From NCBI GenBank assembly GCA_021234155.1, contig JAJEKV010000063.1, positions 2,944,948 to 3,008,947 of the forward strand: a stretch of 64,000 nucleotides of DNA, in the 5' to 3' direction. The notes beneath the pieces are model-generated. The model had not been told where the DNA came from. It worked only from the letters and a program-made list of their open reading frames with translations, and searched no databases. This stretch comes from Isoetes taiwanensis. Taxonomy: Eukaryota > Streptophyta > Lycopodiopsida > Isoetales > Isoetaceae. Shown one piece after another: positions 1 through 59,758 of this stretch. A program made the position numbers and the translations under genes. Positions within the stretch are counted from its first letter, which is position 1; each line of letters opens with the position of its first letter.

Positions 1-1010
1 ACTAGTTGAATAAATGCAAGTTTAAAGGTCATCCTACTAATGAGCACAATCTTTCTTCCTCTGCTTTCTTTATAGTCCAGCCTGCCCCAAACATCTCGCC
101 TATCATGAGAAATATGTTTATTGCTTGGAATAAGATCTCAGGTTGTTTTGAGCCTGAGGTTGCTGTTTCAAATGCATACTTCTATCTTACGGAACTACGC
201 TCTTTCTCAATCGAGGATGCCTTTGTTTAGAAGCATTCTAGGATCCATAAAGAAATGGAAAAGTGTGGGGATTACTACCATTGGTGATTTAAGGGTGGAG
301 CAGCCGTTGGATTGTGTTTGTGCTCAAGAGAGAAAGATAAGAGGTACTCTATCACGATAAAATTGCTAATTATATTAAAGCTACATTGTTGAATTTTAGC
401 ATTACTCCCACCTCATGTGTTATTGATTGGATCTGTAGAGGCAAAGCAAATTACAAAGTCTCTTCTATCTATAATATGCTTGCAAACAATGACATACCTT
501 CAAAAGCTAAGCTTTACTGGAGAATTAATGATGAAGAGAATATAAAACTTTGTAAAAATATTTGGCTGTCCTATTGTACCCCAAAGGTATCATACTTTAT
601 TTGGCTCATGGCCAATAAAAGCCTCCCAAACATGGAAAATGTTGCAAAGCTTTTCAAGCCTAGTAGACGCAATTGTGGTCTTGAGCCTTTATCCTCAAAT
701 TATTCTATGTGATAATTCAGCTGAGTCAATGGTTCATATTTTCCATTGCAGAAAATTATGTGATGTGTGGAACAGTGTGAGGAGGATTTCCAAGTTAAAA
801 AAGCTAATTCTTTTCTTGAGGAATGATGCTTACTATAATACTATTGTCTTTATCATTTTATGGAACATTTGGAAACCACGGGGAGCGAGATGTACGTATG
901 GGAAGCATACATCCCATGCGAGTGGATTAAAATTAATACATTATGGTTGCAAAATCACTCTTGCTCCGCGATTGAGAATGAGGATAAGCTCCTTGATGGC
1001 AGTCTGAATA
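1..1010 (+). mobile_element. L1-type LINE ORF2, C-terminal part (zf-RVT region), decayed
   Basis: Translation of about 386-900, with frame changes, gives the zf-RVT domain that closes plant L1 ORF2 proteins. Landmarks are KNIWLSYCTPKVSYFIWLMA (about 553-612), a Cys/His cluster of the form MVHIFHCRKLCDVWNSV (about 730-780) and ILWNIWK (about 858-880). Bases 1-360 correspond to the connection between reverse transcriptase and zf-RVT. Several stops and frameshifts make it non-functional. The inverted partner is at about 21,930-22,773 on the minus strand, where the same element continues outward into a reverse-transcriptase domain. The L1 family assignment rests on established domain order; the exact family is not identified. 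Confidence 0.75.
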
Positions 1011-2029
1011 ATATTGGAAATTTCTGTAAGCCATTATAAATTTGACTAAATTCCATTATTCCATCTTGACAACAATTTTGTTCACGACTACGCTAGAATA
1101 TGGAGTTCTACGCGGGGATCTGGACACTAGTTTTGACTATCTTGGGGCATCGGATATTTGGAATGATAAATACTCAAGTCAAAGCTTTTGAGATGTTTGG
1201 AATCTAAGATGCACAGCGGAGATATTCCCAAAGCGAAGATTTTTCTAGTCGAAATTCAGTGGGCATATAGATTTTGCAGAAGGCACATATCAAATGTACA
1301 CATTATGGTTTATAGAGACCAAACATCACGGATAGCGGTTTCTATTCTACGAGGAATACTACTAATGCATATAGGGAAAGGAAGATGCTTATGACAATTT
1401 ATTGCTCTGTGGCTACTTCTTGTGTCACGATCCTGCAAGGATGCCTTGACTGGGAAAGCATACCAATTTAGCCTTCCTTCGATCACTTTCCATTTCTCAA
1501 TCCTTAAAAATCCATTATACATTTTCCCTTTAACATGTCTTTTTAGTGGCTGGGTTAATGCTTTGTCAAGATGCAGGGCCGGATGTTTCATTTTCGGACA
1601 CCAAGATTTGCAATCCTAAGTCATAATGGAACCATGAATACGACATTTGAAATTTGTTCTTGTTTACATATCTACTACAATAACTATTGACAATTTTGAC
1701 AACATTTATGCTTTAATATTGTTAAATATGCATTTCTCTATGCATAACATTTTGATATGCTTATTACTATTGCGTGTACAGTCTATCTAATAGATTAAAT
1801 ACTTGAATAGTATGTACTTTTCAATCTATAATTAATGAAAAAATATCTCATTCCACATCACAAAAAAATAAAAAAAATTGGTGAAGGCAGTGAGAAATTA
1901 GATCCCAGCTACTAGATATCTCATCTCTTTACCTTGACACGCTGTACATTACTATTTTTGCAATGCTTCTTTTACATTTCTATTTTAGTTTGTTCTATTT
2001 CCACTTTTTTTTTTTTTTTTCCCTCAAGT

Positions 2030-3119
2030 TCTTCATAAAATTTGCGTCCTTGAAGGAGTTGTATGATTGGACCATCAGTCACACTGTTCAAAGTCTTAGT
2101 GGAGCTTTGTCCTTTTATCTGAGGGTTGAAGTATGGGGCGGTGTCCCTGCAGCTACTTGAGATGACTTGGAGCAGGTGCAGCCTTCTTGAGTACGAGCAC
2201 TAGGGGTGAAGTCCAGTCCCATATCAAATTCTACTGCGGAAAGCAGGTTGCCTCTTGAGGCTGACCCATGTCGCCACATTGTCTATTTTGAAGGTGGTCA
2301 ACATAGGCCCGTGCTTCGTCTCCCAAAACTAACCATATCGCCCAGCAGTAGGGGCCACAGCGCCTCAGGCCTGCTGGAAGAGAGCTCAATGGATGGCTTC
2401 GATGGAATATGCGGGAACACGGTGCATGTGTGCAACGGTCGCCATAGCAGGGGGCAATATCTGGCAGCTTGCTTCGCCAGTAAACTTTTGGGATACCGGC
2501 CAAACGGTCAAAGGCCGGCCACTACGGCCGCCATAATCCCACATTGGGCAGGCCTGAAATGCGCTACCCTCGCGGCACCCACTTACCCATGGCCTTGAAC
2601 TTCATTGCCTCCATTACGCCACGAATTTTATCATCACCCGAATTGAGGCGGTGATGGATTGGTAGAGCCCGCGTCGGGCGAGCGCTCTGTCAATGCGCCA
2701 AATGGGAGTCGTGAGGATGAATCTCATACCTTCAAGTTGCAAACATATGAAATCCGGACGCTATACTGAGTTGGTGGGGCGGCAGCGGTATATGTGACAT
2801 TGAGCGGCGTAGATGCGGATCTAGGATCATACAACCGGAGGTCATGGACATCGCGAGATCCAGCTATGTCCACCGAAGACGCGCGCGAACGTAGCCACAT
2901 ACACATTTATTTCGCGGTAGTGTATACTTATACGGTTTGGCGGCCATTCTTAATGCGCCGCGGTTTTTCCCTGAAAACCCGCCCGGTGAGGTTTTGCTGG
3001 GGCCGGTAATAAGTTTCTTTGCGCTCCCTTCCCAGGTCCCATAGGCCGATTGGGTCTCGATTGGACCCGATAAAAAACTATTCTATTCTATTCTATTCTA
3101 TTCTATTCTATTCTATTCT
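2030..3119 (+). mobile_element. 3' end of a non-LTR element with (TTCTA)n tail, copy A
   Basis: The sequence ends with the block CCCATAGGCCGATTGG, then an A-rich stretch and eight perfect TTCTA units (3078-3119). Comparable blocks ending in the same pentamer occur at five other places in the window. A 3'-terminal conserved segment followed by a short tandem tail is the usual signature of non-LTR retrotransposons, and I believe of an RTE-like plant LINE, but no reverse transcriptase is attached here. The body (about 2,160-3,060) is CpG-rich. Its inverted partner is 19,671-20,800. The boundary at 2,030 is a guess. Confidence 0.5.
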
Positions 3120-3284
3120 CAATTTTTTCTTTTTGTTGTTTTGTTTCCCTTACCCACAAGGAAGCATCATACAAGTCTATAAACATCTCCGGTGAAATCC
3201 TAAGCAACAGCACCAATTTTGAGGTCCTGCATTTTACTTCGAGGTTCATGCCACGAAGTTCCACTTACATATGAGAGGGATAGA

Positions 3285-3350
3285 GAAATAGAGAGATAGA
3301 ATAAAATAGGTTTTTTTCGTCCACGAAGACCAACCGGCCTATGGGACCAA
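3285..3350 (-). mobile_element. LINE-like (TTCTA)n 3' tail, copy A' (minus strand)
   Basis: A degenerate AGATAGAATAAAATAG tail is followed by GTCCACGAAGACCAACCGG and CCTATGGGACC, which is the reverse complement of the conserved 3' block of copy A. The tail of this copy faces the tail of copy A about 170 bp away, so two tails point at each other. The partner in the other arm is 19,440-19,515. Confidence 0.5.
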
Positions 3351-4249
3351 AAAAAACACCATTATAAGAATAAACCTTGTTCATTTAGAGAGTCACTTCT
3401 CCTAATTCCCTAGGTTTGCCAAAATCTTAACTTTAGTGCAGTGGCTATCCCTAAAGGTCTTTTAATTTTGATATCTTGTAATTAAATGGTTTACAAACTA
3501 AATGCAATGGATATTGGATTGACTATATCTCAAACAGAATTTACTACGCCTAAAGTTGGATTACTAAAGAAAAATTATGAGAGAGGCCCACATTTCCAAT
3601 TGGAAGTAATATGAATAATTCCTTCTTTACTAGAACAAGAGAGCCACCCATGATGAGGTGACAACATACGAGTTCACGTAAGTTTTCCTTCGATTATAAG
3701 GGAAACAATGCATTACTACATGCATTATAAAGATGTGTTGAATATGGGACACTATAAGTAAAATTAACACTACAAAACTGAATTCTGATTGTGCGTTGCG
3801 GACTTTACTACAATTTGAAGGTGGTTGTTTGATTGTTAGCTAGAATAGAGGTCACAAAGAAAGGAGAGCCAAATTAATCAAGAAATGATATCACATCTTA
3901 GATATCCATAAGATTAACCATATAAGTGACTTTTGCAATGCATAAAATATTTTGGGGTCATTGGCTTGTAAATGCCAAAAAGATACTATAGGTTTCTAAT
4001 GCTCCTAAGACAATGTGCATTCAAATTATTGAGGACTTAGATACAATTATTTTTTATTATTAGTTTACATTTTGCATGTAATTTTGCAAAGGGTTGCAAA
4101 GGGATATGTGATATTAGGTGTTGCTTTATTAAGAAAAAGTATTTAAATAGATGAGCTTTGACACTTTTTAGATCAAAGTAAACCAAATACCCATATAGAT
4201 AGAAGTCTCTTTCAATAGCAAAGTACAATATATTCATCGATATTCCACC

Positions 4250-4505
4250 ATATGGTGCACAATTGTCCCTCTGGGCATTTTTAAGCAAAATGCCAATCTA
4301 ATATTTCCTTTTATGTTAAGTAAGATTTGAAGGCGACCTACAATAACCATCTTGTGTAATTTTGAAGGATTCCCACTTAGGTATGATGCACAATTGTCCC
4401 TCTGGAGCATTTCAAGCAAAATGCCAATCAAATATTTCAACACATGTGAGTAAGATTTCCAGCACGACCTACATAACCATCTTGTGTAATTTTTGAAGGG
4501 ATAAG
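4250..4505 (+). repeat. Tandem duplication, about 130 bp x 2
   Basis: Two consecutive copies run from GCACAATTGTCCCTCTGG through AAGCAAAATGCCAATC to CATCTTGTGTAATTTT. They start near 4,257 and near 4,390 and differ by substitutions and small indels. The partner block in the right arm, 18,300-18,560, has the same two-copy structure, so the duplication predates the palindrome or is shared by both reads of it. Confidence 0.75.
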
Positions 4506-7169
4506 TCATTCATATTTCTTTATTTTACATTAGGTTCTACCATAGTTCATAATAGAGAACTGTACTATATAACCAAATAATTTCTTTTCGATATACATTA
4601 TGTAACAAAATAATAGGGGGGTTCGAGGAGGTTGATATGGATGTAAAAATAACAATTCACAGAAACCATAGACCATATATCATTAAAAACAATCAAATAA
4701 AGTTGTTATAAAAGAAAAACATAAGATTCAAAATAAAAAATAACCGCGGCTAGCTCAAACTGGGTATATTGGTTAAAGAGTAGTCTTAGTTAAGACATTG
4801 AATTATTTTGGTAGAGGTTGACTCAGGTATTTTATATTCCTAAAAGCAGGCAAAAAGTCATTATGGGGTTCAAATATTCTCTCCAAAGGCAACAGAAGTA
4901 ATCGTGTTTCATATTTCAAATCATGGAGGTGCCTCAATCATAAGCAAAGCGAAGTGCAGGGGCCCCAGCTTATACGATCTAGGTCATGGGATCAATGAGA
5001 TCAGCGGCTGTGGTAGTCCGGGGGTGCACCCTCGTTTTAGAATAACCGGGGGGTTTCAAAGGGGATTTGATATGGATGTAAAAATAACAATTCCTGAAAC
5101 CATAGACCATTCATTCCCTCGATCTGAATACATGGATACTTGATCATTTGTGCTTGTGGGGTGGTATGATTGTACAAGTTTGGTATCTTGTATAGTGAGA
5201 TTTGAAAAATATTTATAGGGGTTTCTGGTAATGTACTAAATAGTGTTGATTTTGTACATTTTCTTTATTAAAATGGAATGGCTTTGATTTCCGAGGCGGA
5301 GCGCCGCATGTGCAAAAGCGGCGCATGCGGCGTTCCGGGCTGCCGTGTCGCCAATTTAAACTACTCTGGTCTCTTGGTGTGCTTGCCTTTTGGGCCCACC
5401 CCGCCATGCTGGCTTCGAATGCGCCATCGCAGCGCCGGTCTTTGCTTCATCGATGTAAGGTTAGCCCGATTACCTTCGCGCATTATCAGTTTGATTTTGA
5501 TCTCCATCATTTTCCTTCATCGGATGATCATTTACCTTCCATCATTTGACCCTGCTTCAAAATGGGCGAGCCCGAGAACAGGAAATCGTGAATCCCTGGA
5601 ATTTTTCACTTCCTATCTTCAAAGAGCGAACATTAGAGTGGTTGGGGTCTCAAAATGGCCCATATCTTGGATGCCAGAATTCCCGTCATGTTTCTCAGCG
5701 ACCAATGATGTTTAGCATTTTCCAAAGTGGGTATTAGTTGGCAAGTAGAAGGAGCGACTTGCATCCACATAGCCGAAATTTCATGGGACATGTTTGTGCA
5801 TTCATTGCAACCCACATTAATGGCCCGCATTTTTTGAAATCGTATCAGCGGACCAAATAATGGCTACTTTTCTGCGCCCTCTGCATTGCATGCCCACATG
5901 CACCAACCACCTTAATAAAATTTTGGCACCAAGATTTCCATTGTTCACATTGGCCTTCTACGTGCATCCTCTCATGCCGGTCTTCGTGTTTTGGAATCCG
6001 AGTCTCCATTAGATAATACGTGTTTTGCGGACATAGAGTTAAGCAACTGCTTGTGAGGCGATGTCTTGAGGACAAACAAGCGTCACGTTACATGCCATGT
6101 TTTACTACCCAGAATTTTCATTGAAGTTTTCCTACTTTTCAGCTCTTCCCATTCATGCATTATTGCTCCACACCCATTTCATTCTTACAATTCAGCATTA
6201 GTATCTCTAATTGCATCCCATCATTGCTCTAGTACTCCTACATTGCTTCTGCAGTTCATCACTTACAAAACAATAAAGGCATGGCCCGGTGGAAGGATAT
6301 CTATCCATAGGCTGCGTGGGTGAGAATGCTATCCTTAGCGAAGGGTGACTATGGAGTTACATGGCGGGCGCATTGTTCATACGCAATGAATAGGTAGAAC
6401 TATGGGGTTCAAAGTAAATGCTATGGATAGTATATTGCAAAAAGGGAAGGGGAGGAGGATTTGAAGAGGGAGGGATATTTGCAATTTTGTACCCTCAATG
6501 TACATGGATCCACCATGCGAAAATGCATATGCGCTGTAAATGTGTAGTGAGATTTGGCGTCGTATTGATCCTGTACTGCCCTCTTCGAGTTTATATTCCC
6601 TCGGCTGAATTAAAATATTTTTCTTTGGGTATATTGCTCCGGTCTGAGGATTTGAGACTAGGGAAAAGCATTACTAGCATCGTTGTTGTCCAACATATGG
6701 ACATAAGAGACATGCTTTTCCAAGATATACATTCAGGGCAATGGGCATCTAGTTTCACGTTGTAAAGTTGTAGAACCCGAGCTTGAAAGTAGATCCCATG
6801 ACCACTAAGCGAGGTGTGCAAAATATGAGAATGGTGTCCTTGCAATGGAAGAAATGTTTGATAAGGCGATGCATCGGGTTGTTGAAAAAATAGGTTACAA
6901 AATATTTGCTCCATTAGAGGTGTTTACTAATGCCCGCGACACAAAGCTCCAAAGACATGTGTATAAAATGTAAACTTTCATGAGAACTGGATCGAGTTAA
7001 TAAAAGTGTCACATATGGAAACATTGTTAGGTTTGATAAAATAACATAAAATCTTATTTAATAAAGCTTTGGTTGTTGGTAAAAGTGTTGGCTTATTGAT
7101 TAAGTGTTTGTATTTTGCTTTGGGACCCTCTTTGAAAAGTTTAGTTCATAAAACATAATATAACTTGGA

Positions 7170-8190
7170 ATGAAAATTACCATATTTGTATACAAATGGG
7201 AGACTATTGATGGGGACTTGGTGTTATTATCTATTGACAACAAAACAGAAAGTGGATCACACCATGCAATTTAATTATATTCCAACCTTTTAGCTTATTC
7301 AAAATTAAGCTTGGGTAGTGATCTTTTTGGAAAAAGATGACTTCCTATAGTAAATTACTTTGATTATCTTTTAATAAAAGAAATATATATGTGTCTTATT
7401 TGAAGTTAAGATGTGGATATGTGACGTACTCATTTATTGATAAAGTGTTTGCTTTTTGAAAAGGGCTAGCAACATGTACTACTAGAGTTGGTAAAATTAT
7501 TTTAGTGCAAATGGGATGCTTGATGTGATCATGTAAAAAGCGATATGCTCTTTGAAAAGGACTAACTTTATACTTGGGGTGGTAAAAGCATTAAATAGAA
7601 TAAGTGAAATAGAATAAGTTCTTTTATCGTCCAGAGACCAATCGGCCTATGGGACCCGGAAGGGGCTGACAAACTTATTCTTGTCTAGGGTTAAAAACCC
7701 TTTAGAAGAGTTCCGAGAGGAAAGAGCGTAAGCGATGTAAAATCTTTGTCAAACTTTACAAAGTACATCATCGAAATAAATGTGTATGTACATGTCAGTC
7801 GTGCCGGACGCTGATCTACCATGTCCATGACCTCCTGAGAGGGCATGATCCCACAGCATCCGTCACCCGGATGCCGTGCTCAATATCACATGTATTAAAT
7901 GAGAAGGGGTACTTGTGTTTTAATTTCAATTTGACAAGCAAAATAAGAAGTGGATCTACGATCTTGGTGGGTATGTTCCATTTTTATTTGCATATGTACT
8001 AAACTGGTGTGATCCTTCTTGAAAAATAATATGCTCTTTGAAAGGGATAATGGCTTATGTGCCAAAAAGGTGGTAAAGCATTTTAGATACAAATAGGAAT
8101 GAGTACTTGTGTTTAATTTTTAATTTGACAACAAATAAGAAAGTGGATCACATAATGCCAATTTAGTGTGTCCCCTTTTTGCATATGTAT
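7170..8190. repeat. Dispersed direct repeat, three diverged copies
   Basis: A segment with the pattern TTTGACAACAAATAAGAAAG followed by TGGATCACA recurs near 7,225, 7,925 and 8,125, each followed by T-rich sequence and TTTGCATATGTA-like text. The copies are not exactly tandem, and copy B of the LINE-like 3' end (7,595-7,885) lies between the first and second. No coding capacity is seen. Counterparts are at about 14,750-15,650. Confidence 0.5.
7595..7885 (-). mobile_element. LINE-like 3' end with degenerate tail, copy B (minus strand)
   Basis: Read on the minus strand it resembles copy A: GAGGTCATGGACATGG, then ACATTTATTTCGATGATGT, then CCCATAGGCCGATTGG, and a weak tail of TTATTCTATTTCAC. It is 5'-truncated with no reverse transcriptase. 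The inverted partner is copy C at 15,045-15,297. Confidence 0.55.
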
Positions 8191-9576
8191 TATTAAGCGG
8201 TGGCGATCCATCTTGAAAAAAAATAAGCTTTCAAGTAAAAGAGGAAAAGAAAGAAATATCTTATTTAAAAGTGTAAAGTGTTAGTATATAAAGTGTTGGT
8301 TTATTAAAATACTATTTGTTTATGCTGAGTTATTAAGTTCAATGTTGTGTTTCTATTTGCACTGCATAAAGGGAATCCACACCCGGCCGAATTTCTTATA
8401 TGCAATTATACAACATGAAGATTTAGCATCATATGATGATCCTCTTTAAACAAGGATGGCTTTGACCTTCAATGTTCATAAATTTTATGAATGTTTGCAT
8501 ATAAAGAATGTCACATATCATATTTTCTTAAAATATTCATCGAATGGATAACTAGTCAAAAGTTCTTCTACTACTTAAAGAGTTTCAAAACTCATTTGCT
8601 ATAATTTAAATGGCAGTAGATTTTAAGGAATCTATTGTTAAAAGTAGTCAAAAGACTTACTTGTATTAAGCGGTATCTAAACACAAACACCATAACCTTT
8701 GTACTTCAAAGATGTATAAACCCTTCACATTGCAAAGTATAATGTCATTTATTAGCATCTTCACCGGACATTTCCCCTTCCTTATAGGAGTATCTCATCT
8801 CAAGGAAATGTATTGTTAGATTCGAATACCTTCCACTTCATCCTCTCTCAAAATCTCTGCAATATCTAGGAGGCGAGTTACCGTCACCCACAAAATCAGA
8901 CTAAACTTGAAGCGTCCACGAGAAATAGCGGTTTCTTGCCTCAACGGATCAATGGATAAAGCGCCATCGCCCGGATGTCGACGCACTTTGAGCACGCAGA
9001 CCATTCGAGGTCTAAGTTCTTATTTTAGACCTCTTTTTTCGCGATTGAAGACTGGAGCATATTAAGTAGGTCAGTTGGATCCTTATCCACACATCATTTG
9101 GAGCTTCCACATCTTTGGAAGTGGATGCTTACGGCCAGCGAAATGAAGGTGTACAATTTGTATACTTGACACAATTAAACGTGTAGGCGAGAGCGTCGGA
9201 AATACTAACCTCATTTTGAAATTTACAGCGTGCATGGAAATCGAAAAGTCCATTCTCCTACAATCCATGCTTTTGCCATTAAGCAAATTCAAATTTCGAA
9301 TTGTAGGGGTGGGAAGCCTGTATTGGGATGATAAAGATCCCGGTTAATGCTTTGAGTTCACATGGGCCTGACTGGCCGGCTTCACCCCACCCGCTGGGCA
9401 GAGTGAGGCAAAAATTCCAGCCCGTTTTGGAAAATCCCAGCCGCAGATCCAGCTGCGTAGCTGATGCGGCGCTGAATTTTTAATGGAGTGCTGGCTTTCC
9501 GCAGGCTCAGTGAGGCCTAAGCTTCTCCATGTGAACCACCCATAAGGTCGCGACAGCGGCCCTCGAAATGAAGTCA

Positions 9577-9637
9577 CGATACAAGCTTCCAACCTACACA
9601 TTCAAATTTTGAAATGTAGGCCCGGAAGCTTGTATGT
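9577..9637. repeat. Short imperfect inverted repeat (hairpin)
   Basis: The stretch reads as ATACAAGCTTCC, a short gap, CTACACATTCAAA, then TTTTGAAATGTAGG, a gap, and GGAAGCTTGTAT, so the two halves pair with almost no loop. A related CGAATTGTAGGGGTGGGAAG lies at about 9,297-9,316. It may be the end of a small non-autonomous element. No partner hairpin is clear in the diverged right arm. Confidence 0.5.
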
Positions 9638-9639
9638 AT

Positions 9640-11700
9640 AACCTCCCTAAATGAAAATAAGCATAAAGTCGGTGAAACCATAGCTTGGTATCGACAAACC
9701 AAGAGACAGATCATGAGTTGCGGTATGCTATAATGCAGCTTTTTTAGAAAACCCCATGTTGCACATCATTTTGTCGACAACCAACAGAATTAAATACATA
9801 TGAAGCCATGAATCATGATCTATTCGGAGAATATTCCAAAGTAAATCTGTAATGATAGAGATTTGGTATCCTGGTGCTGTATAGGAAAAAGGAAGCGAGA
9901 ATATAGTGGAATGGCTGATATAGAGCCATTTGAGACCCCAAATCCCCCTAATGGCCGCTTTGGCAAAACTTCAATATGTTTTCCAGTTTAGGTTGGGGCG
10001 GAAGGGGTGGTTTTCAGCTTTTTCTCTTCTATTGTAGTTTAGCATTTGAAGAGTGCTCTAAACTAATTTAGATCCTGCGGTGTTAAGAGTCCAGTTAACT
10101 TAGGTTGGAGATTCAAGGAAGTGTTGAAATGGTAAAATGGTTTTCTGGATGCCTCCTACATGTTTTAAAACTTATTCTCTTATCTATAAACAAGCTTCCA
10201 GTTTCTTTGAGTGAAAGTATTTGAAGCGTCACGGGTTAGATATAAAGCCCGAAATAGAGGTAAATGGTGAAGCTCGACTAGCATGGCTTGGGTTGCTAAG
10301 CTTTGGTTTGTGCAAAACATGCTCTCTGGTAGAGATTACATCACGACAAACTTAATCTAATGGGAAATTGTTGATAAACCTGGCATCCTTTTTGAGTTCA
10401 GTAGCTAGCTATCTCTTTGGTTACCGTTTGGATACACATGTACATTTATTTTACACTCGAGGCTTTTGGAGTTTCTTGAAGTTGGCTTATTGGTCTTTAC
10501 ATGTAGTAGTGTCATTACTTGATCTTACGACAGGTATGAAATTGGTCGCGGAATAAAGGCAAAACACCGGTTTGTTGCTCAGACAAACTAAATTAGAAAC
10601 AAATTAAGCATTAAGGTAACCATTTAACTCTAAAGAGGGTTTTATTTACCATATCCCATCTGACCTCTGAGACAATGTCTAATTATGTAAAGATCCTTAG
10701 CTATTCTTAGATTATGCATTGCTATCTCCGCGAAGATTAGAGAAACATGATGGTTTTTCTTACGTGCTTGGAAACATGCAAGCTATAGATACATTGTTTC
10801 TATCTTTGTTTGTAGAGTCTGGGACTTCAGAACCCTCTTGATCTTGGGCAAACTATCGTGTCTGTTTGTAGGGCTTGATTTCTCGGGAGGCGACCATTAC
10901 TTGGGTTGTACATCCATTTAGGAGGCTCCATCTCATTTGACATCATTATTTTAAAAGCAACATTCTGGTGATCACTTAAGGTCCATTCTGCGGACATTTC
11001 AAAGGTTTTAGCATCTAAATGCGTCAGCATTTGTGTAGATATCTAGTTACCTTTTGTACTAGGGACTAGAAAATCGTTTTATGCATTACTTGGAAAGTAT
11101 TCAATAGGAAGAAACTTATGCTCGACCTGTGCTATAGTTGGTGTTTATAATGCGAGTCCTTAGCGAATTTTCTGGGGTTTGAAGATATTCAAGGAATGGT
11201 GGAATTCACAGCGTTTGTGTATTGCTATCAGGGATGCAGTCACACAATAATGAAGATTATTCTTATTCCGAAGCAATTATAGTATATCGTACCTTGCTTC
11301 TTCAAAATCGAGAGTCTTTCGACATGCTCAACATTTGCATTTCCATTTTGGATGCCCTCGGTTCTCTTGGTCTGCTATACCTTCATCTTGCTTGCTCTCT
11401 TTTTTGGTGGTTGCTTACTATGCAATTTATTGGCTATTTAGAGATGGAATATTGGAGCATATGTCAAAGTATCTCATTTGCAGTAAGCTCATGAAATATT
11501 TAGAAGTCATAGCGGTCTTGGTATAAAGGAAATAAGAAGCGTTGAAACACTCAAATTGTATGTCATAGCAACAAAGTACGGATCTACTTTGATTAAAGGT
11601 AAACAAGACAATGAAATCAATGTCTGAATCACGGTAGTTAAGCTCTCTATATTGGTGTTTCTACATTTGTCTTTTGCAATGTCATTGGCATTGCCATAGT
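9640..11700 (+). other. Inner left arm, no gene seen
   Basis: A+T-rich sequence with only short open frames and no recognisable domain, tail or long tandem repeat. It pairs with 11,780-13,560 of the right arm in interrupted blocks, for example around 10,935-11,000 and 11,420-11,570. Confidence 0.6.
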
Positions 11701-11710
11701 AGATGATGAT

Positions 11711-11767
11711 GACGCGGTATAGCTACGTTTTGGCTGAGGCGTGACGCGGGGGTGAGAGGAACGGCTG
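11711..11767. other. Loop of the giant palindrome
   Basis: About 57 nt separate the last recognisable paired bases of the two arms: left arm ends near the GATGATGATGAC run, right arm begins near TAATCATTACTG. The spacer is G+C-rich and CpG-rich compared with the arms. Such a tiny spacer between arms of more than 11 kb is unusual for a stable chromosomal sequence and is typical of fold-back or hairpin products. Exact edges are uncertain by about 10 nt. Confidence 0.7.
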
Positions 11768-11829
11768 ATAAATAATCATTACTGTAACAATGCCAATGTT
11801 GCAGATGCAAATGTGAAACGCCAATACTC

Positions 11830-14150
11830 AGAGAGTTTTAACTTCGAATGTATTCGAACATTGATTTCTCGGCCAATCTTCTGCCGCTGCTGAGAGTAGT
11901 GTTCGCGCCGACATGCCGCCAGTGTTTCAACGCTGCTGACCCACGCTGCCTGCCGACTATGACTTCTAAGCCTAAGCGAGCTGCAAATGAACAGCTTGAT
12001 GCTTTCAATATTCCATCTCTAAATGTCCAATAAGTAAGATGGCTGGCTCCCGGCCAAACAGCTGGAGCTGAATAACGGCAAAGAAAGAGCTGAGAACAGA
12101 AATGCAAGCCGAACAGCTGTCGAACTTCGGTACGAAAACTTTGAGCATGACTGAAATATGCCCATTTCACGGAGATAGTAGAATATTCGACCCGACCTAT
12201 TGACTGCATCGACAACAATACAACAGCGCGAAACTGTCGCTTGATCTTTCAGGCTTTAATGACGAGTTCCACTGCGCATAAACGCCAGCTTTATAGCGAC
12301 ATTTCTTTCAGTGATACTTTCACGCAGCAAACGTGATTTTGTCCCCTGAGCACAAAGGTATTGAATGTCTACTGACGTCACTGACTCTTTGAAATGATCG
12401 CAATGTTTTTAGTGTCACTGTGTGTTGCTTTCGTAATGATGTCAAATGGAGATGAACCCTCGGTGAATGTGCTGAAGTAATGAGGCTGCGCAAAATCGGC
12501 AGCGACGCTTGCTCCCAGATGCGAAGGAAACGAAAGGCTCTGCGCTTCCTAGCAAAAGGTGAAGCGATCAGAACCGCTGATGGAAGCAAAACCATCATCA
12601 CTCCCAGTAGGTGAGGATAACAATGCGCTAATCAGGCAACCATGATGGCACATGGTGAACTCTGTGGCTGACTGTTGAAGCGCTGCTCTTTGGCGCAGTT
12701 GAGACGCAGCAATAACATTCTGTTCACGCGGCTGTCACGCAGCTGTGTTTGCGCGTACGCACCATTCGCTGGCTCAGATGGCGTGACTTTTCCGAACCAA
12801 TGGCTTCAACGGCTTTCAAAGCCGGAGATAATGGCAATGTGCATGTCCCAAGCGGGCAATGCGTGAAATAAAGGAAGATGCCGGTTTATCGGCAATTTCC
12901 GATAGTGGTTCGCGCATGTATCTCTACACAGCACAAACCAAAAACTTAACAGCCGACCGTACCGCTGGAGCCTTCACCGACACCATTGCATCTTTCAACA
13001 CCATCACCTTCATAAAGCTGAGCTTTGTTTGCCAGGCTTCAGAGAATAAACTTTTAAAGGCCCGTAACCGGGAGAACGTACGCGGGCTCATTTACCATTC
13101 CTTAATCTCCAACCGTTGCTATCTGGACTTCTTAACTGCGGAGCAGGGCTTGCTCTTCCAAATGCTAAACGAAAGCAGGCATTCGCCGGCGGCTATTGGC
13201 GGTAGCGTAGAGCGATTTGAAGATGTCAAAATGACTCATATCGGCTCATTCCATTCGGCTCCTTTCGCACCTGAAGATGCCAGATGCATCGTGCAATTTG
13301 AATATTGCTAAGATGGGGAGATGGCGTTCGTAATACATATCCAGTTGTCGACGACGATATGCGGCATGTATTTCTAAACCGCGCTTGCGCGTATAACATG
13401 CGGAAACGGCTACGCTGGCGATAACGGTTGTACTGGCGTCGCGATATCGCCGTCTTCCTGTTGAAGGCCGTAATACGCTTTCCGCCTTCCATTCCGGAAA
13501 CTGTATTGTGGAGATGGCTTTTGTGTCGATTTCGTTACGACATTTTAGCATTTTACGCCCATGGTGGTTCACATGGAAGTTTAGGCTTCACGTGATTACG
13601 GTAGTCGACGGCGATTGGGAACCGTGACTGGCGAGATTGATTCTTCTTGTGATTTTCGGCGAACTTTAATTTTTGCCTGTTAATTCCGGCGGGAGTTGAC
13701 GAACCGTCCATGTGAGCGTGCTTGAGATCTTTACTTCGTCAATGCGCTTCCCGCCCACGGTCGAGAATTTGTTTGTTTAATACGCTAGTGAGGATTGTGA
13801 GGCGGGCTTTGCCATTTTCGTATACCCGTTAGCAATTTCAAAGGCGGTGATGGGCGTTAAACTTCACCGCCGGCGGTATCAACGGGAACGTATGCACTTC
13901 ATTCGGCGTCGTTTTCATCGCGCTTTATTCGAAGCCAAATGATATTCGGACCAGATCGACTTTCAGCCATCGCCTCAGGTCTTCAATCGCAAAAGATACA
14001 AAAAGAACCCGAACACCGGCGTCAGGCCGATGATAACAGAACTCCAGAAAATGGGCATGCGGGCGGATGGCAGTTTATATCCATTGAATCCGTTGAGAAT
14101 AACGGTCATTCGAGCGTTCAGTTGATACGTTACAACAATTGACGACAACC
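11830..14150. other. CpG-rich, highly diverged inner right arm
   Basis: This stretch is much richer in CG dinucleotides than the rest of the window and superficially looks bacterial. It is nevertheless the reverse-complement partner of the left arm: anchor blocks such as TTTAGAGATGGAATATTG (about 12,005-12,025 by complement) and GCGTTGAAACACT (about 11,925) are shared. The open frames here (for example 12,859-13,311 on plus and 13,246-13,572 on minus) match no family I know and are not conserved in the left arm. I regard the composition as degraded or mis-called sequence and not as a gene island. Confidence 0.6.
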
Positions 14151-15044
14151 AACATAGAAACAGAGATTGAGGGTGGTGAGCATTAGGAATCACGATACCA
14201 TTTCAGCAGAATGAATGCTTCGTGGGAAATAAGATGAATATTAAGTGACATACTTTGCAATGTGAAAGAGGTTTGCTCACGATGTGAAGCAAGGTTATGG
14301 TGTTTGTGTTTGAATCGTATCTGAAGTCTTTGACTACTTTGGCTATTAGATTCTTTAAATATTGCTATTTAGAAGTATAGCAAAATGAAGTTTTAACTCT
14401 TTGAAACAGTAAACTTTCTTTGACTAGTTGGCATTTTTAGAAATATGATATGTGTTTCGACTAACATAATACGAAACATTCATAAAATTATGAACGTGAA
14501 AGGTCAAAACCATCCTTGTTTAAAAGGATCATATGATCTTGAAATCTTGGCGGCTCAAATACGTAAATTAAGCACAGTGTGATCATGGCGTGCGTAAATA
14601 GAAACACAAATATTGAACACAACCAGCACTCAAACAAGCTCAGTATTTTAATAAACCAACTATATACTAACACTTACACTGAAAATAGACTGTTCTTTCT
14701 TTCCTTTACTTAAACTATTTTCAAGATGGACTCATAACGATAATACATATGCAAAAAGGGACACCTCGTGCATGTATGATCCACTGTGACGATAAAATTA
14801 AACACAATACTCATTCCTATTTGTTGTCTAAAATAACTTTACCACTCTTAGTACTGAGATCGTATCCTTTTCAAAACATATTATTTTTTCCAAGGGGATC
14901 GCACCCGGTGAGAATATGCATTATGCAGCAATGGGCATGCTTAGAGATTGGCGTCGTGTGATCCACTTTCTTCATTTGTTTGTCAAATTGGAATTAAACA
15001 CCGGTACTTCTGGGTTTTATTGCGTGACGTGGGCATGGAGTGGG

Positions 15045-15297
15045 ATGCTAGGATTATACGCCGGCATGGACATCGCGAGATCAATTTATGTCTCGAACTG
15101 CCGCCGGCAATGTACATACATTATTTCCTTATTGATGTATACTTGTAAAGTTTGTGACATTCTTAATGCTATACTTTCCCTCGAAACCCTTGGTGAGGTT
15201 TTAACGGACGGTAATAAGTTCTTTAGCTCATAAGGTCCGTAGGCGATTGGTCTGGGTCAGATGATAAAAGAATATTCTATTCATTCTATTCTATTTA
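15045..15297 (+). mobile_element. LINE-like 3' end with (TTCTA)n-type tail, copy C
   Basis: It contains GGCATGGACATCGCGAGATC, the TTATTGATGTATACTTG stretch, GCGATTGGTCTGG, and a short tail of ATTCTATTCATTCTATTCT (15,272-15,297). It is the right-arm partner of copy B and is better preserved in its tail. No coding part remains. Confidence 0.55.
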
Positions 15298-18200
15298 ATG
15301 CTTTACCCCAGGTGCGCCAGAGTTATTGGTCCTTTTCAGGCATGGTTTTGAAGGGATGCATCGAGCATCATTTCATCCACGGAAATCCCTTTGGAGCTCT
15401 AGTAGTGCGTAAGTTGGCTTCAGCCCTTTTTCAAAAGCAAACACTTTATCAATAAATGGTACATATCCACGTAACTTCAAATAAGACATATATATTTCTT
15501 TTATTAAAGATAATCAAAATGTAATTTTACTATAGAGTCATCTTTTTCCAAAGATCACATAAAGCGAATTTTGAATAAGCTAAAAGGGTTGGAATATACT
15601 AAGTGCGTGGTGTGATCCACTGTATTTGTTGTCAATGAATAATAACACCAAGTCCCTCATCAATAGTCTCCCATTTTGCATATAAAATATGTATCATTCA
15701 AGTTATATTATGTTTATGAACTAAACTTTCAAGGGTCCCAAAACAAAATACAAAACAGCAATCAATAAGCCAACGCTTTTACCAACAACCAAAGCTTTTA
15801 TTAAACAGATTTTTATGTTATTTTATCAAACCTAACAATGTTTCCATATGTGACACTTTGAGTTAACTGATCCAAAAGGCTCGTAATGACATTTTATACA
15901 ATATGTCTTTTGGAGCTTTTGTCAATAAGTGGCGATAGCTACCTCTAATAGACAAATAATACACCATAAAACTCCATTTTTTCAACAACCACTGGATGCG
16001 TCTTATCAAACATTTTCTTCATTGCAAAGGGACGCCATTCTCGCCGAGGCTTGCACAATTGGCTTAAGGGTCATGGAACGACTTTCCAGGCTAGGCTCCC
16101 TGGCTTTACAGCGATAAAACTAGATGCCATTACCCTGAATGTATATCTTGAAAAACATATGCTAAAGATATTCATATGTTGGACAACAGCGATGCTAGTA
16201 ATGCTTTCCTAGTCTCAAATCCAGAACATCGATAAATATAGCCCAAAGAAAAATATTTGATTGATAGTCGAATATAAATCGAAGGGGAAGAAAAACAAAG
16301 GATCGCATGTGCTTGAAATCTCACCACATTTTACAAAGTGCGTATGCATTTTAGCGTGAGATTGTGATCCATTATTGAGGTACAAAGGTACCGGAAATAT
16401 CCTCTCTTCAAATCCCTTCCCCCCCTCCTTCCCTTTTTTTGCAATATACATCCATAGCATTTATTTTGAACCTATAGTTCTACCTATTCATTAGCATTAT
16501 GAATGTGGCTCCGGCGAATTAACTCATGAATCGCCATAAGATTCAGGATAGCATTCTCCTTGCGAGCCTATGGATGAATATCCTTTATGATCATGCACTT
16601 TATTGTTTGTAAGTGATGAGCTATGGCTAATGTAGAATACTGAGCAATGATGGATACAGTGGAGAATCTGATTAGTCGTTGAATTGTAGAGCAGATGGGA
16701 ATATCTGATGAATGGGAAAACTGAAAAGTAGGAAAACGAATGAAAGTGGGTAAAATAAAACATGGCATGTAAGCCGCGTTTGCTTGTCATACATGCATAG
16801 CGTTATTGCTTAACTCTATGCTGCGCCCACGCCAGAAACACGGACACTGTGGAGACTTAGTTTAAATGAAGACCCGGCGGAAGGATACTGCGATAAGCGG
16901 CTAATGTGAACAATGGAAATCTTGGTGCAAAATTTGATAAGGTGGTTGGTGCATGTGAGCATATTACTTGCGATGGCCGAAAAGTAGCTGTACGAATTAC
17001 GCGTGATCACGATTTTCAAAAATCTTGAGACCATTAATGTGGTTGCAATGAATGCACAAGCATGTCCTAATTTCGCCATGTGGATGCCAAGTAAACACGC
17101 CCTCTTTCTACTTGCCAACTGTCGCGACTTTGGAAAAAATGCGCCAAACATCATTCAGTGCGAGAAACATGGCGTGGAGATGGCATCAAGATATGGGCCA
17201 TTTTGAGACTAAATCCGCCTAATGTTGCAACTGTGAAGATGAGTGAAAAAATCGCCGGGATTCACCATTTTGCCTTCCGCCATTTTGACGAGGCGAAATG
17301 ATGAGCAATGATCACATCGATGAAGGGAAAGTAGTGGAGGATCAAAAATCAAAACTGGATGTCTGCGCCAAGGGGCAGCAATCCCTTACATCGATGAGCG
17401 ACGCGGCGTTGCGATGGCGATTAAGTAACCGCGTAAGCGGTGGCCCAAAAGGAAAAAAAACACCGAAGAGACTTAGAGTGGTTTTAAAATTGAGCACGGA
17501 GCCAAAAGGAGATCTGCTTGAGGGGGCTTGTATGGCGCTGCACATCTTGACGTTAAAATTTCAAAGCCATTCCATTTTTAATAAAGAAAATGTACAAAAA
17601 ATCAACACTATTTAATTTACATTCTTTTGCCAAACCTCATAATATTTTCAAATCTCCTATAGGTATACCAAAACTTGTACAATCATACCTAAACGCAAAT
17701 GGGGTCGCTATCCCTTGGTCTAGATGAGGAATGAATGGTCCTATGGTTTGGAATTATTATTTTTACATCCATATCAAATCCTTGAAACCCTGTTATTCCT
17801 AAGCGAGGGAGTTGCACCACGGACTACCGGTCGTTGGATTAAAATTCGATCCTATGACCCTAGATCGTATGTTGGGGCCCTAAACTCTCGTTTTGCTTAT
17901 GATTGGGCACCTATGATTTTTTGAAATATGAAATACGATTTTAAGCTAAGGTTTTGAAGGTATTGAAGACCTCTATCTGACTTTGCCTAGCTTTTAGAAT
18001 GTAAATCACGGAGCTTCGAACCTCTACCAAAATAATTAGTAATGTAACTAAAGACTGCACTTTAACAATATACCAGGTGAGCTAATGCGGTTATTTTTAT
18101 TTGAATCTATGTTTTTCTTCTTAACTTATTTGATTGTTTTAGGATATATGGTCTATGGTTTCAGGAATTGTTATTTTTACATCCATATCAAATCCTCCTG

Positions 18201-18299
18201 GAACCCCCTATTATTTTGCTACATAATGCATATATATATCGAAAGAAATTATTTGGTTATATAGTGTTAAAGTTCTCTATTATGAACTATGGTAGAACC

Positions 18300-18560
18300 C
18301 ACGAAAATAAAGAAATATGAATGACGCCTATCCTTCAAAATTCTAAAGATAGTTGGGTGGCCCGAAATCTTACTTCACATAAAAATATTTGATTGGCATT
18401 TTGCTTGAAATGCTCGGAGGACAATTGTGCATCATCACCGATTGGAATCTTAAAATTACACAAGATGGTTATTGTAAGGTCATCCAAATCTTACTTTAAC
18501 ATAAAAGGAAATATTAGATTGGCATTTTTGCCAAAATGCTCGGAGGGACAATTGTGCACC
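18300..18560 (-). repeat. Tandem duplication, partner of 4,250-4,505
   Basis: Two copies of the GCATTTTGCTTGAAATGCTC-type unit, read in reverse complement to the left-arm pair. They confirm that the internal repeat structure of the two arms is the same. Confidence 0.7.
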
Positions 18561-19439
18561 ATATGGTGGAATATCAGATGGAATATATTGCATGCATATA
18601 TATTGAAAGAGACTTATCTATATGGGTATTTTGGTTTACTTTGATCTAAAAAAAGTGTCAAAGCTCATCTATTTAAATACTTTTTTCTTAATAAAGCAAC
18701 ACGAATATCACATATCCCTTGCAACCCTTGCAAAATTACATGCAAAATGTAAACTAATAATAAAAATACTGTAATTAAGTCCTCAATAATTTGAATGCAC
18801 ATTGTCTTAGAGCATTGGGGAACTTCCATAGTATTTTGGCATTTACAAGCTAATGACCCCCAAAATATTTTGCGATTGCAAAAGTCACTTATATGGTTAA
18901 TCTTATGGATATCTAAGATGTGATATCATTTCTTGATTACTTGCCTCTTCTTTAGACTCTATTCTAGCTAACAATCAAACAACCACCTTTCAAATTGTAG
19001 TAAAGTCCGGCAACGCCAGACACCGTAACTAGTTTTGTGTTAATTTTACTTATAGTGTCCCATATTCAACATCTTATACGATGTAGTACGATTGCTTCCT
19101 TATACTGATGAAAATTTACGTAACTCGTATGTTGTCACTCTCATCATGGGTGGCTCTTCTTGTTCTAGTAAAGAAGGAATTATTCATATATTATCTAATT
19201 GAAATGGGCCTCTTCATAATTTTCTTTAGTAATCCAACTTTAGGCGTAGTAAATTCTGTTTGAGATATAGTCAATCCAATATCCATTGCATTTAGTTTGT
19301 AAACCATTTAATTACAAGATATCAAAATTAAAAAGACTTTAGGGATAGCCACAGACTAAAGTTAAGATTTTGGTAAACCTAGGAATTAGGAGAAGTGACT
19401 TCTTCAAATGAATGTTTATTCTTATAATGGTGCTCTTTT

Positions 19440-19515
19440 TTTTCTTTGGTCCCATAGGCCGGTTGGTCTTCGTGGACGAAAAAAACCTATTTTATTCTAT
19501 TCTCTTCTATTCTAT
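19440..19515 (+). mobile_element. LINE-like 3' tail, partner of copy A'
   Basis: GGTCCCATAGGCCGGTTGG, TCTTCGTGGACG, an A-run and then TTTTATTCTATTCTCTTCTA. This is the best preserved version of the conserved 3' block in the arms and is the inverted partner of 3,285-3,350. Confidence 0.55.
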
Positions 19516-19670
19516 CCTCTCATATGTAAGGAACTTCAGGGCATGAACCTGAGAAGTAAACAGAGACCAAAATTGGTGCTAAGCTGCTTAGGATTGTATT
19601 TGAGATGTTTATAGACTTGTATGATGCTTCCTTGTAAGTAAGGAAATGTAAAACAACAAAAGAAAAATTG

Positions 19671-20800
19671 AGAATAGAATAGAATAGAATAGAATAGAAT
19701 AGAATAGAATAGTTTTTATGCGTCCTTGAGACCAATGCGACCTATGGGACCAGAAGGGCCCTTGACAAACTTATTATACATCAGGGTTAAAAAACCCATA
19801 GAAGGGTTTTGAGAGGAAAAAGCAGAGTAGCGATATGGAATCTTGTCAAGCGTAAGTATACATCATCATGAAATAAATGTGTATGTACATGTCAAGTACG
19901 TGCGAAGGACATAGCTGATCACCATGTCCATGACCTCGAAGGTATGATCCTGCTGTCAAATGCGGATCTTTGGAGTGCTCAATATCACATACCATTTGCA
20001 GCGGTTACGATAACTTCGGCATAGCAGCGTCAGGATTTGATCATATCTTTGGGCAACTTGGGGTATGAGATTCATCCTCAATGACTCCCATTTTGAAGAG
20101 CATTGGCGAACTTTGTCGGCGGTGGCTCGCAATCCATGCACATCTCAATTGAAGATGATGTGCCACAATGCGAATGGAGGCAATGAGTGCGTCTTTCATG
20201 GGCAAGTGGGTGCGCGGGTAGCATTATGAACCTCGTTCCAATGTGGGATTTATGTGGTACGGTAGTGTCGTCTTGACTACATTCCAAAGGCTGGCATCCC
20301 AAAGCAAACTTAAGCGTCGAATATTACCTCAAGCTATGGCGGTCGCCTCTGTTTGCACATGTATGCACACATTATCTGCACATTCCATCTAGCCATCCAT
20401 TGAGCTCTCTTTTCCCTCAGCGGAGCCTTGGCGTTGTGGCCCCATTGCCATGATATAAGCTAGTTTGGGAGCCGAGCAGCCGTCCATATTGGCTCCTATA
20501 CAAAGTAGACAATGTGGCCAGTCAGGGAGCCATCCCTCCTAGAAAAGAACAAGAATCACATTTCTACTTGGGTAGAATTTGATATGGAACATGGACTTCC
20601 ACCTAGTGCCATTACCAAGAGAGGCTTCTGCTGCTCAAGTCATTCCAAGTGGCAGGGACTCAGGCCCCATACTTCAACCCAAGTGTAAAAGGGCCAGTCA
20701 CTGGGCAGGCAGTGTGGCCGATGGGTCCTTACAACTCGCTCTATGGCCAGAGTCTTATGTGAAAGAACTTGAGGGAAAAAAGAGAATAGAGGAATAAATT
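19671..20800 (-). mobile_element. LINE-like 3' end with (TTCTA)n tail, copy D (minus strand)
   Basis: Eight AGAAT units (19,671-19,712) are followed by the complement of the conserved block and then by sequence that pairs with copy A at 2,160-3,060. This version is less CpG-rich than copy A, so it is probably closer to the true sequence. No reverse-transcriptase motif was found in the 1.1 kb adjoining the tail. Confidence 0.5.
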
Positions 20801-21929
20801 AAGAATAGAAACGATGCTTGATTGCAAAATGCGTCACGTTGTCATTATCCAGAAATTAAAGATGAATCGTAAAAGTATGGTTGGACGACTTCGGTCGTCT
20901 TCATAATTTTTTATTTTTTTATTTAGGAATGAGATATTTTTTTCATTAATTATAGATTGAAAAGTACATACTATTCAAGTATTTGACCCATTAGATAGAT
21001 CAAAATACCAAGAATAGGTAATAAGCATATCAAAATGTTATGCATAGAGAAATGCATATTGGCACAATATTAAAACATGTCAAAATTGTCAATAGTTATA
21101 GTAGATATGTAAGCAGTAAAGCAGTTCAAATGATGGGATTCGGTAGTCTCTATAGTATGACTTGATTACCGTCTTGGGTAATGCATTAAACATCCGTCGT
21201 ACCTGCAGTGACGGTACAATCAGCAATTACACGAAAAAGAGACATGTGTTAAAGAGGAAAGCAGGATGGGGCTGATTTTTAGGGTTGAAAGAAATGGAAA
21301 GGTGATCGGAGAAGAGGCTAGGGTGGGTATACTTTTGATTCAAAGCATCCAAGCGGTGGGAGGCGCAAAATTAGCCATTATGAGCAATAGAATTGTCATA
21401 GCATCTTCTTTCTACTATATAGTAGTAGTAGCATTCACTGTAGAATAGAAAAGCTCTGTCATCACACATGTTTTGGTCTCTATAAACAGAATAATGTGTA
21501 CATTTGATATGTGCTACAAAATTCATATACCCACTGAATTTGAGACTAGAAAATCTTCAAACTGGGAATATTACAGCCGGGTATCTTAGATTTCAGGTAA
21601 AACATCTTGGCTTTGACGGTGTTTATCATCCCAAATATCGATGCCTCGGTATGATCAAAACTGGTATCAGATCCCTCATGTAGAACTCCATATATTCTAA
21701 ATTAGGTAGAACGAGAATTGTTGTCGGTATGTGAATAATGCAATTTGAATAAATTTATAATGGCCATAGAAATTTCAATATTATTGCATCGTCATCAAAG
21801 GAGCCATCTCATTACGCAATGCGTGAAGAAGCCGTGCTTGACATTTTGCAAATCATCGGTATTAATTTTTAATCCCGGCATGGGTGCTTCCCATCTGGAG
21901 ACATGCAGATGCAATAGCTGCAAATGTTC

Positions 21930-24130
21930 CATGGAAATGATAAAGACAAATGAGTATTATAGTAAGCATCATTCTGAAAAAATTAAGCTTTTTAGCAGAG
22001 TACTCTCATACGTTCCACCACATCCATGGAAATTTCTACCAAGTGATATGAACCATTAACTATTAGATTATCCCATAGAATAATTTGAGGGATAAAGGCT
22101 CAAGACCACAATTTGATCTACTAGGCGAAAACTTTGCAACATTTTCCATCATTTTAGGAGGCTTTTATTGTGTGACCAAATAAATTATGATACCTTTGGG
22201 GTACAATGGGACAGCCAAAATATTTTTTACAAAGTTTTTATTCTATCGTCATTAATTCTCGATTAAGCAGCTTTTAGGGTATGTCATTGTTTGCAAGCAT
22301 ATTATAAGATAGAAGAGACTTTGTAATTTGCTTTTGCCTCACAGGGATGATCAATAACACATGGGGTGGAGTAATGCTAAAAGATTCAACAATGTAGCTT
22401 TTAATATAATTGAAAATTTCTTATCAAGAGATAGAGGTACCTCTCATCTTTCTCTTGAGCACAATCCCATGTGAAATCACCTATTGCCCACCTTAAATCA
22501 TAAATGGTAGTGAAATCCCACTTTTCATTCTTATGGATCCTAGAATGTTTAAGTAGCAAAGAGTCCCTGGTTGAAGAGCAGAAGTTTAGAGATAGAAGTA
22601 TGCATTTGAGTGTTACTCCTCGTGCTCAAAGCAACCTTACAGAATCTTATTCCAAGCAATAAACATATTTCTCCTTGATAGGCAGAGATGTTTGGGGCAA
22701 GAATTTTGGATAAGCGGAGGAAAAGAAAGATTGTGCTCATTAGTAGGATGACCTTTGAAGCATTCCAACTAGTACTTGAAGTAAAAGCGATTGAAGCAGT
22801 TGTTTTATGGAAAAGGAGCTCTCGGATATATTTACCAACTAAAATGAGCCACAAAGAAAAGGTTTTGCAATATTCCAGTTTGGGCTCGGTTAAATAATTC
22901 AGTTTTGATCCGGATACCTTTTTCCCCAAATAAAGTTCCTAATAATTTTTCTGGAGTTTGAAGATAGGCAGTTTTGGGCAAAGCAAAATGAGAGGAGAAA
23001 TAGATGTAATGAACTTACAATAACGGCTATGTGGTGCTTCCAATAAGAGAGAGACAATATGGGATTCCACCGGACATATTATTATTGTCTAAAGAAAAGA
23101 GAGTAATCGAGAAGGTTGGTAGCTTGAGAAGTTGAGACAATTAATTCACATATACTTTGTTGATCTATCATAATTATGCTACATTTAGAGATTAGAGGTA
23201 CGGTACCAAAACTAGGAATTATATCAGAGATACATGAGATGTTTGGTGTCATTTTAGGGAAACTAAAGAATCATGACATATTGCAAGATGTTCATGTTGG
23301 TAGTATTATCGGTGGAAATCAATCCCTCAATATTCCCTAGATGAATGTGATGATTAATAACTCTAACAAGGATCTCGGTAGTAATAATGATAAAAGGGCC
23401 AAGGGCGACCTTGTCTAACCCCTCATGAGGAAAAAAGGTTATGGAGAGAGCCATTAATTAGCAGGTGGGTGAGATCGAGTTTAAACCATGGATAGGTTTA
23501 GTATTTTATGGAAAAAAGCTTACCAAAGGCATGTCCATGGAATTCTGATGAGCAGGTGTCAAAAGGCTTTAGAGAAGTCCAATTTCAAGAGGCCACAATT
23601 TTGTTTGGTATACTTGTTCAATGAAGACCTTCAACATGACAATATAATTGTCACAAGATATATCTATTGGGGGAGAAATGAAGATTGAGAAGGACTAATA
23701 TTATTTTGAGATGTCCGGGCGGCAGTTTTACGTCGGTCAAGGGTAAAGATATCCTCGACCTGCGTCTCAAGCAGTCCTTCAAAGGGTTCTCTGTTCAAAT
23801 GGTTTAATATTCTAGTACATTATAGAAGATTTTTGTGCGGATACAATAGGAGCCAATTGCCTGTCCCCTCGCTGACAATTCCCACGAACCAATTATCCAT
23901 CAAACACCTGATCTCATTGACCTTTCCCGAGAAAACAACCAACCCTTAATTCTAGATAGATTTGATGGCTTATCCCAGTTGCAATCCAGTTGAGCACAAG
24001 AAGAAATAAGCACAAAGATATGGTTGTTCATGATTCGAGAAAAGCAATTAATAACATGGACTTGATTGGCTTCGGAGCCCAGGTTATTAGAAAATAATGA
24101 TATCAATGAGGAAATACAAATTATCAAAGG
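21930..24130 (-). mobile_element. L1-type LINE ORF2, reverse transcriptase to zf-RVT, decayed
   Basis: On the minus strand, with frame changes, the reverse-transcriptase motifs appear in order: RYIL then DNYIVM (about 23,660-23,630), LDFSKAFDT (about 23,590-23,560, the first catalytic-Asp motif), a GVRQG block with PFIIITTEILVRVI (about 23,425-23,360) and NMNILQYVMIL (about 23,295-23,265) where the FADD motif should be. The catalytic Asp pair is not visible in that last motif. Downstream (22,300-22,000) is the zf-RVT region that also occurs at 386-900. Stops and frameshifts throughout make it inactive. At its 5' side it meets an oppositely oriented piece carrying the missing N-terminal half. 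The inner part from 22,773 downwards is inside the palindrome arm. Confidence 0.8.
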
Positions 24131-40400: not shown

Positions 40401-40402
40401 AG

Positions 40403-56556: not shown

Positions 56557-56733
<177 letters not shown>

Positions 56734-59672: not shown

Positions 59673-59758
59673 GGGGTGGTGGCGCAGTTGGCTAGCGCGT
59701 AGGTCTCATAGCTACAAGTGAAATCCTGAGGTCGAGAGTTCGAGCCTCTCTCACCCCA
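59673..59758 (+). tRNA. tRNA-Met: Elongator tRNA-Met (CAT) with intron
   Basis: The cloverleaf is clear: acceptor GGGGTGG (59,673-59,679) pairs with TCACCCC (59,751-59,757), discriminator A at 59,758. Box A is GCGCAGTTGGCTAGCGC, the anticodon CAT lies at 59,706-59,708, and box B is GAGAGTTCGAGCCTCTC. An intron of about 11-12 nt (GCTACAAGTGAA region, 59,710-59,721) sits one base 3' of the anticodon, the position where plant nuclear elongator tRNA-Met genes carry introns. A CAA-rich leader is absent, but a T-rich stretch (AATTTTTATT) follows directly and can serve as the RNA polymerase III terminator. Confidence 0.96.

Follow-up and report, generated by a model that had tools for sequence, protein, structure and literature searches.

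The window analysed here is a 64-kb stretch of the Isoetes taiwanensis genome assembly (G000:C1071:2944948-3008947), taken from a scaffold of 8.56 Mb in a genome of 1.66 Gb and 1,110 contigs. An inverted repeat spans the whole of it and, in total, about 148 kb of the scaffold. The gene content is plant-like, with an R2R3-MYB gene and a long interspersed nuclear element (LINE) that carries zf-RVT and reverse-transcriptase pieces. All positions are window coordinates, negative values lying to the left of the window start.

Geometry of the inverted repeat

The left arm fills positions 1-11,710 of the window (forward strand) and goes on pairing leftward to -61,968, where it meets a sequencing adapter and then a gap of N. 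The right arm occupies 11,772-64,000, up to the window edge (reverse strand), and continues to 85,802, then past an insert of 2.96 kb to about 88,845. Between them lies the fold point, an unstranded and unpaired centre of 61 nt (11,711-11,771) with no clear adapter in it. The arms measure 73.7 kb (left) and 74.1 kb (right), both lengths being derived from the left end alone; the right end of the read proposed below is hidden under consensus sequence.

A single self-alignment pairs 21-8,761 with 22,759-14,231 over 9,097 columns at 74.5% identity. Once the neighbouring scaffold stretches are joined, the anti-diagonal runs across the whole window and past both of its edges, reaching -61,879 on one side and 85,798 on the other; beyond the right-side insert, pairing resumes as far as the adapter at the left end. 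The original prediction, made from the letters of the window, had proposed a palindrome of at least 22.7 kb with a loop of about 57 nt. Its size was a minimum, the real one being about 148 kb; the nearly spacer-free centre is there, at 61 nt instead of 57. The mirrored, opposite orientation of the arms, also part of that proposal, is borne out by pairing along their full length. This collinearity holds in anonymous sequence and is not limited to transposon fragments, so the pattern named beforehand as refuting the palindrome, arms that align at such fragments only, is not what is seen. The two halves are reverse complements of one locus, as in a fold-back.

Pairing is weakest near the centre. 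Over the inner 3 kb of each arm, identity in a global alignment is only about 57-59%, and the three blocks into which this part was divided score 98-178; with 40 unrelated genomic stretches tried for each block, the highest control scores were -122.5, -125 and -66. At the centre itself, 11,613-11,710 pairs with 11,868-11,772, which leaves the 61-nt spacer. When positions 3,035-4,500 were searched against the genome, the two arms gave the only full-length matches among those listed.

Differences between the arms and the sequence at their ends

We aligned the arms over 71,908 columns, keeping four collinear pieces and dropping the others. Outside this alignment are the inner parts (8,978-11,735 and 11,736-14,055), which were aligned separately, 3.8 kb at -43,797 to -40,000, and a few short stretches, including a CT array at 56,557-56,733. 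Within the alignment the arms are 78.0% identical. Mismatches number 5,816 and gap openings 6,001; nearly all of the latter (5,623, or 94%) are 1-3 bp long and 11 are of at least 10 bp. The largest piece of the palindrome has 64 gap openings per kb, or 0.48 per mismatch. In contrast, nine ordinary repeat pairs from non-palindrome loci, scored in the same way, have 14 per kb and 0.10 per mismatch, values that rise to 21 per kb and 0.20 when three polyubiquitin pairs with 0-2 gaps are left out.

The differences are also unevenly spread. The arms are identical in 31 of 717 windows of 100 columns, and the longest exact runs measure 702, 548 and 319 bp, about 39 bp being the expectation under even divergence. 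These runs of hundreds of bases sit within surroundings of 70-77% identity. Mutation would leave mostly substitutions, long-tailed indels and symmetry between strands, a pattern that the two arms do not display; judged from the sequence, their differences look like sequencing errors.

Strand symmetry can be counted directly. Under neutral divergence of inverted copies, sites with T on the left and C on the right, taken together with those with G on the left and A on the right, should be as numerous as the complementary class. Over all sites the counts are 1,806 and 1,318. When clean flanks are demanded, the excess is found only in the CG (98:22) and CHG (80:17) contexts, CHH standing at 282:255. 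Jointly, CG and CHG give 178:39, with a 95% bootstrap range of 3.0-7.5 for the ratio (74 blocks), and in a sign-flip test none of 20,000 trials produced a difference as large as that observed. The asymmetry is as from errors bound to the reading strand, and its direction is plus, that of the adapter. An explanation by methylated C miscalled as T as the sole cause was withdrawn, because the same class holds A-to-G errors that create CG and CHG sites; the counts per segment and the CpG excess in the worst stretches fit A-to-G errors at least partly. We therefore call the differences read-strand-specific, with methylated C read as T and A read as G both as candidates.

The left arm is the poorer of the two. 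In its outer part the right arm matches third copies on contigs C1042, C1037 and C1045 at 90, 91 and 89%, whereas the outer left arm matches the same copies at 67, 70 and 72-78%. At 18-19 kb, the right arm is 91.6, 91.4 and 93.4% identical to the copies L004, L005 and L006, with two gap openings each; the left arm reaches 85.2, 83.0 and 85.3%, with 11, 11 and 6. Five short-unit arrays are kept in the right arm and two in the left, and matches to U6 and tRNA lie in the right arm, none of either being found at the mirrored left locus. Two further contrasts were considered and dropped: unlike flanks, argued from a missing match 80 kb from the centre, because the left side there is N, and noise ending exactly with the palindrome, because the outer right arm is clean.

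Right next to the fold point, the right arm is itself degraded. Its start (11,736-14,236, forward strand) is 2,501 bases long against 2,981 in the left partner, or 16% shorter, with a G+C content of 0.48 against 0.40 and an observed-to-expected CpG ratio of 1.22 against 0.71.

At the other extremity of the left arm, -61,999 is the first base after a run of N. From there to -93,346 all sequence sampled is N: L016 throughout, L018 in part and L030 at its start. A 10-kb interval separating L018 from L016 lay outside this sampling, and an N run is by itself no proof of a contig end. The first 31 bases of the arm contain the Oxford Nanopore ligation adapter, in plus (reading) orientation, as at the start of a nanopore read. 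The match comprises 23 of 24 aligned bases plus one inserted base and scores 21, a value that none of 20,000 shuffles reached (highest 17). Among 812 scanned windows no other exceeds 15, except one that overlaps the adapter site. The adapter sequence agrees with that given in the cited parts of PMC9965538 and PMC7490894.

The adapter is not confined to this locus. Its core occurs 273 times genome-wide (137 forward and 136 reverse), with no copy of the reversed control. Of ten copies inspected, eight have an N run 5-10 bases away and two lie within sequence. These two, at L039 (C996:21000588-21000887) and L040 (C974:427021-427320), stand in continuous, N-free sequence, which suggests joins made through untrimmed or chimeric reads. 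Long N runs are present in five 10-kb samples of the scaffold C1071 (L016, L018, L023, L024 and L029), three of them consisting wholly and two partly of N.

On the right, the insert extends over 85,803-88,762 (2.96 kb; L031:9601 to L017:2560). C1056 bears a copy with 99-100% identity to it and C1026 another with 98-99%; paralogous sites, the one on C1045 among them, lack it. The left arm is without it, since the final 130 bases before the adapter fit the empty site with a score of 140 (shuffles at most 79.5); the same 130 bases score 72.5 with the insert interior, inside the shuffle range. The insert is perhaps a young, heterozygous mobile-element insertion.

Origin of the palindrome

What was observed directly is that the arms mirror each other, that an adapter stands at the contig end, that the differences are error-like and strand-specific, and that the left arm is the poorer. 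From this we conclude that the 148-kb palindrome is very probably an assembly artefact, made from a single long nanopore read in folded-back form. Such a read would begin with the adapter at -61,999, follow one strand for 73.7 kb (the left arm), turn at about 11,740 and come back on the complementary strand as the right arm, overlapping the true contig. One molecule would have made both arms, and the right arm with the sequence beyond it would be the genuine locus. We propose that the true contig stopped a few kb before the fold point, and that the assembler took the fold-back read as an extension, its overhang being the longest at a dead end. All of the left arm, together with the opening kilobases of the right one, would belong to that overhang, mostly uncorrected by other reads. 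Later polishing may have repaired patches only, the exactly identical ones marking where it reached both arms.

The share of fold-backs among nanopore genomic reads is about 0.55-0.6%, as given in the cited part of PMC12870357. In nanopore reads of inverted duplicates, missed and wrong bases begin at the junction, and the low-quality part that follows roughly equals the preceding arm in length, according to the cited part of PMC7229812. The degradation at the start of the right arm agrees with such a fall in quality past a junction: this stretch would be the second pass immediately beyond the fold, uncorrected by any other read. The milder loss farther out on the right arm would be put down to a consensus from other reads. 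The original prediction had left a choice between an exceptional natural inverted duplication and a template-plus-complement read assembled as linear sequence; the adapter, the sequencing-like and strand-asymmetric differences and the poorer left arm favour the latter, and the former finds no support.

Several points weigh against a fold-back read as the source. The case is built on assembled sequence, and the left flank, being a run of N, offers no comparison. Errors occur in both arms: the MYB gene has small deletions in the right arm at places where the left reads on. Severe loss covers no more than the initial 2.5-3 kb of the right arm, and in that part of PMC7229812 the poor stretch is described as roughly equal in length to the preceding arm. 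The insert is present in the right arm only, so that an origin from a single molecule needs a second haplotype; other reads, perhaps from that haplotype, would in such a case have supplied the outer right sequence. Noise of this kind is not unique to the palindrome either, as some repeat pairs from other contigs are gap-rich, chiefly those with L007. One of them is the 3.2-kb pair L006-L007 (27 kb apart on C998; 86.9% identity, 138 gap openings and 219 mismatches), and L007 may be another uncorrected stretch or a false duplication. For a repeat on the same scaffold, 0.5 Mb away, identity to 11 other copies is 88-94% (768-1,233 bp aligned), which would be impossible for raw reads at the noise of the left arm; the noise is therefore local, though not unique.

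If the inverted duplication were natural and old, with arms diverged to 78%, that identity and different flanking content would be accounted for. We give this reading practically no credence: indels are nearly as numerous as mismatches and almost all 1-3 bp long, gap openings stand at 64 per kb against 14 (or 21) in ordinary repeat pairs, exact runs of hundreds of bases lie in surroundings of 70-77%, and the adapter at the end and the strand-specific differences contradict it. Near-spacerless palindromes of 148 kb are rare, and this counts against a duplication that is real and recent, with almost no spacer, about 74 kb per arm, near-identical arms, an insertion of 2.96 kb in one of them and one ultra-long raw read as the only record of the left arm. 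Arm-to-arm differences would then be errors of the single crossing read, placed uncorrected. Such an origin would suit the corrected-looking patches, exactly identical over up to 702 bp as in a young duplication, as well as the right-only insert, natural between two true arms; the drop in nanopore quality after the centre is found in true inverted duplicates too (PMC7229812, cited part). We nevertheless regard it as very improbable. Two identical arms should both gain from the consensus, yet the outer left arm is 67-78% identical to third copies and the outer right arm 89-91%; the left arm ends in a read-start adapter beside an N gap, though any overhanging read would end so; and nanopore genomic data commonly contain fold-back reads (PMC12870357, cited part).

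A less remote possibility, which we still consider unlikely, is that the arms are two strands read in succession through one pore and left unsplit by the basecaller, and not one covalently folded molecule. The unpaired 61 nt come near the 50 nt that an end adapter and a start adapter have together, and the top-strand adapter scores 12 of 28 at the centre, slightly over shuffles (p = 0.037, one of three tests). Neither the bottom strand (9 of 22, p = 0.27) nor the joined pair (15, p = 0.12) stands out, the centre is not among the best of the 812 windows scanned for the adapter, and PMC12870357, in the part cited, argues that most fold-backs arise in library preparation. The sequence of the centre is poor, and an adapter could be hidden there. 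A PacBio palindrome from a missed adapter was rejected: the adapter at the end is a nanopore one, and the SMRTbell sequence scores only 9 and 10 of 45 at the centre.

A read folded back in this manner would resemble the nanopore fold-back (duplicated-inversion) reads of PMC12870357, in the part of that paper cited here: the second half comes from the same place on the opposite strand, with little or no sequence between the halves, in a native-DNA nanopore read. Unlike those reads, the one proposed here is known through an assembly, has about 74 kb per pass and is built into a scaffold. As at the inverted-duplicate junctions in the cited part of PMC7229812, missing bases and poor calls start at the centre, in the arm read second; unlike there, the severe loss extends over about 2.5-3 kb and not over the length of the preceding arm. 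The artificial palindromes treated by Pacasus in amplified long-read data are likewise long and harmful to assembly (PMC6218980, cited part). They come from whole-genome amplification, in contrast to the present case, where we saw no sign of amplified DNA. The CG and CHG asymmetry, if it comes from methylated bases, would speak against amplification, the A-to-G cause competing with this.

The region is not usable as biology, since counts of its genes and repeats (the MYB gene, the mobile elements) would double. Its value is rather forensic: a fold-back read in a finished assembly would be recognisable from sequence by four joint signs, namely an outer-end adapter beside a gap, differences rich in short indels, exact patches amid noise, and differences that depend on the reading strand. 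With 273 adapter copies in the assembly, its other contig ends merit the same scrutiny.

Genes and repeats along the arms

The R2R3-MYB gene lies at 26,768-28,146 on the forward strand, in the right arm (PF00249, E 5.5e-6), and has a mirror copy in the left arm near -4,200 to -5,100. An exact run of 319 bp between the arms falls at this gene, between 27,694 and 28,666; the copy in each arm bears small indels where the other has none. The palindrome being in all probability an artefact, the left arm would falsely duplicate the right, second MYB gene included, and we read the left-arm MYB copy as a false duplicate.

A LINE reverse-transcriptase fragment at 40,215-41,199 (forward strand; PF00078, open reading frame 41,120-41,494) holds the longest exact stretch between the arms, of 702 bp. 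A match to DDE_Tnp_4 is weak and under its curated cut-off. At 34,769-36,402 there is an irregular array, richer in G+C, in which TGGCATGTTGGAGCC-like units of about 18-20 bp, and multiples of these, recur.

In the right arm, ARAGORN assigns 59,673-59,758 to tRNA-SeC (anticodon tca) and Rfam to a plain tRNA. Use of tRNA-SeC is not known from plants, and the element may be a base-damaged tRNA gene. Just past the palindrome, at L017:4907-5935, an intact polyubiquitin open reading frame contains four repeats of 76 residues.

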